From: Sphingobacteriaceae bacterium
Lineage (GTDB): Bacteria; Bacteroidota; Bacteroidia; Sphingobacteriales; Sphingobacteriaceae
NCBI GenBank assembly: GCA_029266635.1
Contig: JAQSWM010000008.1
Span: forward strand, 124,001-188,000
Length of the DNA stretch: 64,000 bases
Direction of reading: 5' to 3'
A program made the position numbers and the translations under genes. Positions 30,507 to 31,699 of this stretch are shown piece by piece. Position 1 is the first letter of the stretch; each line of letters opens with the position of its first letter. The notes under the pieces are model-generated. The model saw nothing but the letters and a program-made list of their open reading frames with translations. It searched no databases and was not told where the DNA came from.

Positions 30507-30529
30507 TAGTTTATGCTGTGGAAGTCGCT

Positions 30530-30552
30530 CTTCGGAATTTGCAATTCCGAAG
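30530..30552. repeat. REP-like imperfect palindrome, upstream copy
   Basis: A 10-base arm CTTCGGAATT, core TGC and arm AATTCCGAAG form a stem 43 bases upstream of the transposase start. The exact reverse complement of this 23-base element lies downstream of the same gene at 31151-31173. Confidence 0.85.
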
Positions 30553-30560
30553 CCCTATCA

Positions 30561-30577
30561 TGGGATTTCTAATCCCA
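30561..30577. repeat. Second REP-like palindrome upstream of RAYT
   Basis: Arms TGGGATT and AATCCCA with a three-base centre form a short palindrome immediately before the transposase gene. Confidence 0.6.
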
Positions 30578-30582
30578 AACAA

Positions 30583-30590
30583 TATATTTG
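30583..30590 (+). promoter_or_regulatory. Perfect -7 box (TAnnTTTG) in front of the RAYT gene
   Basis: TATATTTG is a full match to the Bacteroidota sigma-A -7 consensus. It lies only five bases before the ATG at 30595, so a transcript started here would have almost no leader. No clear -33 box was found. Confidence 0.35.
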
Positions 30591-30594
30591 ACAC

Positions 30595-31112
30595 ATGGCA
30601 TTTGCTTATGTTGTCAAAGACCAGCAGGGAGTATATTTTGTTACCTTCACTGTACACCAATGGGCGGATGTTTTCACACGCCAGATATATGCAGATGAAT
30701 TTACCAATAGCCTTCGGTATTGCCAGGAACAAAAGGGCTTGGAAATTTTTGGATGGGTGATAATGAGCAATCATTGCCACCTCATTTTACGAGCTGCGGG
30801 CAGATATTCTTTGAGCGAGATCATGCGAGATTTAAAGAAGCATACTTCCAAAAAAATTTACCGGGCTATACAAGAGAATGCACAGGAAAGCAGAAAAACC
30901 TGGCTGCTAAAGGTGCTAAATTTTGATGGTAAGATTTGGTTTTGGAAGAAGGCTATCATGGTGAAGAAATAATAAGCGGAGAATTTTTTGAGAGCAAGCT
31001 AAATTATATCCACTTGAACCCAGTGCGAGCAGGCATTGTGGAAAAAGAAGAGGAATATTTAAACAGCAGTGCGGGTGAGTTATATGGGATTAGGCAAGGT
31101 AAACTAGCATAG
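30595..31112 (+). pseudogene. REP-associated tyrosine transposase (RAYT, Y1 family), frameshifted
   Basis: The reading frame from 30595 encodes a Y1-transposase N-terminus with the HUH metal motif in VIMSNHCHLILRA (His60 and His62), but runs out of frame near 30945 and stops at 30972. From the same place the -1 frame continues as WEEGYHGEEIISGEF and then LNYIHLNPVRAGIV to a stop at 31112. This is the usual C-terminal half of the family and includes the expected catalytic tyrosine at 31005-31007. The change equals the loss of one G in a TGGG context. No slippery heptamer is evident, so a real deletion or a sequence error is more likely than programmed frameshifting. The gene lies between an exactly matched pair of REP-like palindromes. 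Confidence 0.88.
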
Positions 31113-31125
31113 CAGGTTTGTTAAT

Positions 31126-31142
31126 CAGGTTTGCAAAACCTG
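31126..31142. repeat. REP-like palindrome downstream of RAYT
   Basis: Arms CAGGTTT and AAACCTG flank a GCA centre. A further single CAGGTTTG arm lies 13 bases upstream at 31113-31120. Palindromes of this shape are typical of RAYT neighbourhoods. Confidence 0.6.
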
Positions 31143-31150
31143 TGATAATG

Positions 31151-31173
31151 CTTCGGAATTGCAAATTCCGAAG
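31151..31173. repeat. REP-like imperfect palindrome, downstream copy
   Basis: Arms CTTCGGAATT and AATTCCGAAG with core GCA; the 23 bases are the exact reverse complement of the copy at 30530-30552. The two copies thus bracket the transposase gene in inverted orientation. Confidence 0.85.
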
Positions 31174-31218
31174 AGCTGAAGAGGTCAATGAGATAATTAA
31201 ATTAAGGAACAACAGAGA

Positions 31219-31620: not shown

Positions 31621-31656
31621 TTGTTGGCGTCCCCGCCAACAACAAATTACCTACCC
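31621..31656. repeat. Hairpin repeat, copy 1 of 2
   Basis: A 36-base unit with a perfect nine-base stem (TTGTTGGCG, loop TCCC, CGCCAACAA) and a tail CAAATTACCTACCC. It is repeated identically 43 bases further on. Confidence 0.9.
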
Positions 31657-31663
31657 TTCGCTA

Positions 31664-31699
31664 TTGTTGGCGTCCCCGCCAACAACAAATTACCTACCC
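31664..31699. repeat. Hairpin repeat, copy 2 of 2, overlapping a stop codon
   Basis: This is an identical copy of the 36-base unit at 31621. The CTACCC end of its tail contains the TAG stop codon and last codon bases of the convergent pseudouridine synthase gene (stop at 31694-31696 on the minus strand). The stem may serve as that gene's transcription end. Confidence 0.9.

Follow-up and report, generated by a model that had tools for sequence, protein, structure and literature searches.

The known transposases that appear closest to the gene described here are treated in the main text of Quentin et al. (2018; PMC6006769) as TnpA-Y1 subclass 2.6, which comprises Bacteroidetes RAYTs of this motif pattern and was equated there with group 5 of Bertels et al. 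The subclass is marked by the motifs NH[LIV]H, WQ and YIH[QN]NP and by non-GTAG flanking structures. Its repeats lack GT[AG]G, are weaker, were called 'atypical' and needed manual inspection, and the main text names no guide for them. For the TnpA-REP proteins of E. coli, Stenotrophomonas and Marinomonas, cleavage of the single-stranded REP was described beside the hairpin at CT or CA, with GTAG taking part in the choice of the site (PMC8266576). The group 3 (subclass 2.5) REPtrons of Stenotrophomonas and Marinomonas (PMC8266576, PMC2817692) share with the present locus the inverted REPs on both sides of the RAYT gene, the short perfect hairpin with a small loop and the paired inverted REPs (BIMEs); their single hairpin carries a GTAG or GTGG head on its 5' side and is cleaved at CT or CA, whereas in the present element GTAG is lacking, a second hairpin is added and the tail is AGC. 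Inverted REP pairs and REPINs with unlike halves are also common to the E. coli REPtron (subclass 2.2), which includes the solved structure nearest to the modelled homologue (4er8) but differs in guide and hairpin and in the very high copy number of its REP. With IS200/IS605 elements (IS608, ISDra2) the Y1 HUH fold and subterminal hairpins with a 5' guide are shared; there, the whole element moves, the left and right ends differ and the genes are multi-copy.

The window, i.e. the whole 64,000-nucleotide stretch of Sphingobacteriaceae DNA that was analysed, contains a locus that is probably a REPtron of the Bacteroidota kind: one chromosomal RAYT (TnpA-REP) gene, now inactivated by a frameshift, with its own REP on either side in inverted copies. 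An earlier note on this DNA had described a RAYT/REPIN-type structure built on 23-base palindromes. The RAYT gene with inverted REP-like flanks was recovered, but the repeat proved to be about 49 nt long with two hairpins rather than the 23-mer alone. The features are compiled in Table 1.

Table 1. Coordinates of the RAYT gene remnant and of the two flanking composite REPs in the window.
Feature	Position	Strand	Basis
Left composite REP (hairpin B, linker, hairpin A, AGC tail; reads away from gene)	30527..30575	-	R1 68.0 bits, E 3.2e-12, full length
Left AGC tail, adjoining hairpin A on its 3' side (candidate cleavage site)	30527..30529	-	tail enriched at 3' foot vs mirror position
Left hairpin A, reported 23-mer	30530..30552	-	sequence
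Left GATA linker core, candidate guide tetranucleotide	30556..30559	-	column kept as [GT]AT[AC] in 42 aligned relatives
Left hairpin B (GGGATT-tct-AATCCC on plus strand)	30562..30576	-	sequence; homology to B hairpins of relatives
RAYT gene remnant (frame 1 to ~30947, then frame 3, 30936-31112, to stop)	30595..31112	+	NCBIfam NF047646 on both pieces; alignment to intact homologue L023
HUH motif codons (H-C-H)	30772..30780	+	protein alignment with intact RAYTs
One base missing compared with intact homologues	30941..30950	+	DNA alignment with L023
Catalytic tyrosine codon, out of frame (YIHLNP)	31005..31007	+	ORF 30936-31112; Y invariant in alignment A4
Right hairpin B (CAGGTTT-gca-AAACCTG)	31126..31142	+	sequence; R1
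Right composite REP	31128..31176	+	R1 65.6 bits, E 1e-11, full length
Right GATA linker core	31144..31147	+	linker alignment; R1
Right hairpin A, reported 23-mer	31151..31173	+	sequence
Right AGC tail	31174..31176	+	sequence; tail enrichment

The open frame 30595-30972 was matched by Pfam Y1_Tnp (E 4e-12) and by the NCBIfam model REP_Tyr_transpos (NF047646; E 4.5e-20), and the frame 30936-31112 by the C-terminal part of the latter model (E 8e-8), so that both gene halves bear out the RAYT identity given in the earlier note. The two pieces scored 72 and 32 bits with NF047646, each below the whole-protein cut-off of 80 bits, as expected for a broken gene; an intact homologue scored 113 bits. The best match among 300 genomes of the family was the intact RAYT of Pedobacter ureilyticus (L023, genome G104), with 68% identity over the first 119 residues; this locus is identical to NZ_SSHJ01000014 (L052) over 3354 of 3354 bases. 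The intact homologue was modelled with AlphaFold2 (mean pLDDT 93.9), and the best solved structure found with Foldseek was the E. coli TnpA-REP bound to a REP hairpin (4er8, E 3.9e-8).

In the alignment with L023, the stretch that separates the HUH motif of the window gene from the tyrosine is one base short, at about 30947, in agreement with the deletion that had been noted near 30945. The catalytic tyrosine is therefore out of frame, and the gene does not carry both motifs in one reading frame. By its sequence it was filed as a putative pseudogene of the RAYT family, not as an active member. The genus is represented by this genome only, hence no orthologous locus was at hand. An assembly or sequencing error in an otherwise functional RAYT is unlikely, with a modest chance left to it by the single lesion, the conserved remainder of the reading frame and the draft state of the genome (18 contigs); against it stand the few REP copies, several of them decayed, as expected without an active RAYT, and a like frameshift in another RAYT of the genome (L007).

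The 23-mers CTTCGGAATTTGCAATTCCGAAG (30530-30552) and CTTCGGAATTGCAAATTCCGAAG (31151-31173) are exact reverse complements, as had been reported, and each forms a hairpin whose 10-bp arms enclose a loop of 3 nt. For this pattern with up to 3 mismatches, 0.01 occurrences were expected in the 64-kb window and two were found. With 84% complementarity, the two sides can be matched in inverted orientation over 49 nt each, which gave the first hint that the 23-mer belongs to a larger unit. The further short palindromes mentioned in the earlier note are real and correspond to the hairpins B of Table 1. On both sides, hairpin B points towards the gene and the tail points outward. GT[AG]G at the 5' foot of the hairpin, the hallmark of the classical GTAG-type REP, is absent from both elements; GATA is found instead in the linker, separated from the stem by 3 nt. 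An Rfam scan of the 64-kb window gave no match. Two copies of another palindrome, TTGTTGGCGTCCCCGCCAACAA, lie 43 nt apart at 31621-31685; this tandem was considered as a further REP family and rejected, as elsewhere in the genome only one place with two mismatches was found.

The left and right flanks of RAYT homologues were compared in 80 named records and 60 further loci. A recurrent order was seen outward from the genes: hairpin B, linker, hairpin A, AGC. Hairpin B is commonly GGATT-nnn-AATCC (about 13-17 nt), the linker has about 8-12 nt with the core [GT]AT[AC], and hairpin A (about 23 nt) is commonly [CG]TTCGACATT-nnn-AATGTCGAA[GC] or a TTCGG variant. Elements were then defined by script as two hairpins 4-14 nt apart, the first of at least 5 bp with a 3-nt loop and the second of at least 8 bp. 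Of 118 near flanks (up to 260 nt from 62 non-redundant RAYTs), 95 contained such a composite, versus 4 of 201 distant flanks (840-1500 nt away); the 62 RAYTs belong to the sub-branch of the window gene and come from several orders of Bacteroidota. RAYTs of the other sub-branch (NHPIE motif) had the strict composite in only 25 of 87 flanks. In several RAYTs of other sub-branches an A-C mismatch near the base of hairpin A was observed (L010, L011, L030, L034, L036, L037, L042 and L043), which recalls the bulge needed by the E. coli REP.

Under the rule of the script, AGC stood at the 3' foot of hairpin A in 85 of 142 elements, compared with 29 of 142 for the mirror GCT at the 5' foot. Loops ended in A in 76 of 100 three-base loops of hairpin A and in 124 of 142 of hairpin B. 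From the AGC asymmetry and the A-ending loops it follows that the composite element has a strand. The idea that a GATA head always adjoins the foot of the hairpin, suggested by three RAYTs of this genome, was dropped because the core varies as [GT]AT[AC] and usually lies some nucleotides off.

A covariance model (R1) was built from an alignment (A3) of 42 elements, one from P. ureilyticus and none from the genome of the window. Base pairs were retained in 98.7% of the cells of A3, with many two-sided changes, a figure that is partly built in since elements had been chosen for having hairpins. Besides the two full-length elements, R1 found in the window only two weak matches, which are the same palindromes on the opposite strand.

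The hairpins could serve the neighbouring genes, as transcription terminators or as structures that stabilise mRNA, and be unrelated to the transposase, as their intergenic position and the start of the left hairpin 21 nt past the stop codon of an M28 peptidase gene might suggest. This is very improbable: the stem is not followed by a T run, and the elements are mirror-symmetric about the RAYT gene and recur at RAYTs of many species, as opposed to the rare occurrences in distant flanks. A secondary role as terminator or mRNA stabiliser may nevertheless exist.

The earlier note had asked for the copies of the palindrome in the genome to be counted. The exact palindrome occurs at four places, including the two copies in the window. 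A search of the 3.6-Mb genome with R1, in which 150 of 1524 first-look candidates were scored, gave at least seven full-element matches at E values up to 1, the last two with E 0.014 and 0.14. About five of these lie outside the window locus; three are weak, and the weakest are decayed or marginal. By an ORF check all R1 matches are intergenic. Repeat copies away from the gene and largely in intergenic DNA, a trait of the RAYT family, are thus present in a number that is low for a REP family. Within the family, R1 matches were found in 78 of 301 genomes; up to 20 candidates per genome were scored, and the counts are lower bounds.

P. ureilyticus, with its intact RAYT, has at least 47 R1 copies, most of which are arranged in REPIN pairs whose tails point outward. 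Among 19 neighbouring pairs (up to 60 nt apart), 17 have hairpin B inside and the tails outside, and these are REPINs in the sense of two close inverted REPs forming a unit; the two REPs of the window have the gene between them. The orientation in these pairs is that of the RAYT-flanking copies, so the RAYT locus resembles a REPIN with a gene in its middle. An intergenic region of P. ureilyticus with three REPINs has no R1 match in the aligned relative G298, which would fit either a gain in P. ureilyticus or a loss in G298; exact element borders could not be placed by this empty-site comparison. Many of the REPINs of P. ureilyticus (L199-L228) join unlike forms of hairpin A, CTTCG...GAGC and GTTCG...CAGC.

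A plain 23-nt REP, with hairpin B and the linker as incidental neighbours of hairpin A, would agree with classical REPs, which consist of one hairpin with a 5' head, and with the 23-mer being the most exact part of the window element. This is improbable, given that hairpin B keeps a near-constant distance from hairpin A in most relatives (mostly 8-12 nt) and accompanies it to the dispersed intergenic copies in this genome and in P. ureilyticus. An IS200/IS605-type insertion sequence, whose end hairpins would move together with the gene, has little to recommend it beyond the Y1 transposase fold and a match to the NCBIfam IS200 model below its cut-off. The intact homologue scored 113 bits with the RAYT model versus 28 with the IS200 model, and the window gene likewise belongs to the RAYT rather than the IS200 profile; by DNA search the gene was found once in the genome while its flanks recur without it; and the ends are inverted copies of a single element instead of two different ends. 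This origin is accordingly held to be highly unlikely.

For the composite REP with its RAYT, the following mechanism is probable by analogy to the TnpA-REP proteins of E. coli, Stenotrophomonas and Marinomonas and to IS608. In single-stranded DNA, hairpin A, and perhaps hairpin B too, would fold and be bound by the RAYT, with the linker tetranucleotide [GT]AT[AC] serving as guide. The tyrosine would cut beside the AGC tail and then transfer the strand, and inverted pairs (REPINs) would spread via intergenic DNA as the outcome. In the present genome, with the tyrosine out of frame and a remainder of about seven copies, some of them decayed, the REP family is probably dying.

Two kinds of linker were distinguished, GAT[AC] and TAT[CT]. 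The kinds on the left and right sides were concordant in 28 of 30 RAYTs. On the RAYT protein tree they required two changes, compared with 13.6 for shuffled labels. In the clade of the window gene, which has a support of 99, the GATA/GATC type was recorded 16 times and the TATC type never. The RAYT residues that part the linker kinds are 105, 109, 159, 67 and 106 (P. ureilyticus numbering). By these sequence comparisons the linker type appears to follow the RAYT clade, which is a concordance with descent and not a proof of contact; it comprises few independent events, with only some two changes of linker type on the tree. A tie between linker type and the base before AGC was also considered: C predominates among the T types (31 of 43 readable), as does G among the G types (14 of 23). 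This rule is not claimed because either base occurs with either type. The chances appear about even that the RAYTs of Bacteroidota have a substrate class of their own, with a two-hairpin REP, a [GT]AT[AC] guide and an AGC cleavage site, and with a guide type that co-evolves with the residues listed above.

The window protein has NHCH and YIHLNP, and its homologues have NHxH, FWEE or FWQE, and YIHxNP, without GTAG; by sequence this pattern appears to fit subclass 2.6. As compared with the main text of PMC6006769, the Bacteroidetes host, NHxH and YIHxNP, a low gene copy number, the missing GT[AG]G head and flanking secondary structures that are also present elsewhere in the genome are shared. 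In the window, by contrast, the structures make up an element of two hairpins that has a linker core, a polarity and a tail, an anatomy that extends past that main text. No other description of the two-hairpin element was found in a literature search, whose coverage left out most subscription journals. The composite REP system is a variant of the known RAYT/REP kind, and the two-hairpin design is common to many Bacteroidota. The Bacteroidetes subclass had stood with atypical repeats and an unnamed guide, and its repeats had been left so because automatic REP searches assumed GT[AG]G. An element with a polarity and with candidates for both guide and cleavage site makes the biochemistry directly approachable, and the defined composite can be used for REP annotation in Bacteroidota. 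The GATA and TATC clades offer a natural comparison for a joint change of guide and enzyme.

Seven Y1_Tnp genes are present in the 3.6-Mb genome, several with inverted flanking palindromes of their own. A second RAYT, L007 (G000:C12:54626), is interrupted by a frameshift too, and the palindromes on its two sides (TCCGTAGAG ... CTCTACGGA) differ from those of the window. Another RAYT, L010 (G000:C8:207758), has its own hairpin family, CRCTCGTT-nnn-AACGAGYG, at nine places, seven of which lie around the gene within about 1.3 kb of each other. In the left flank of L025 and L029, a REP and a fragment of the RAYT 5' end are apparently duplicated beside the intact gene.
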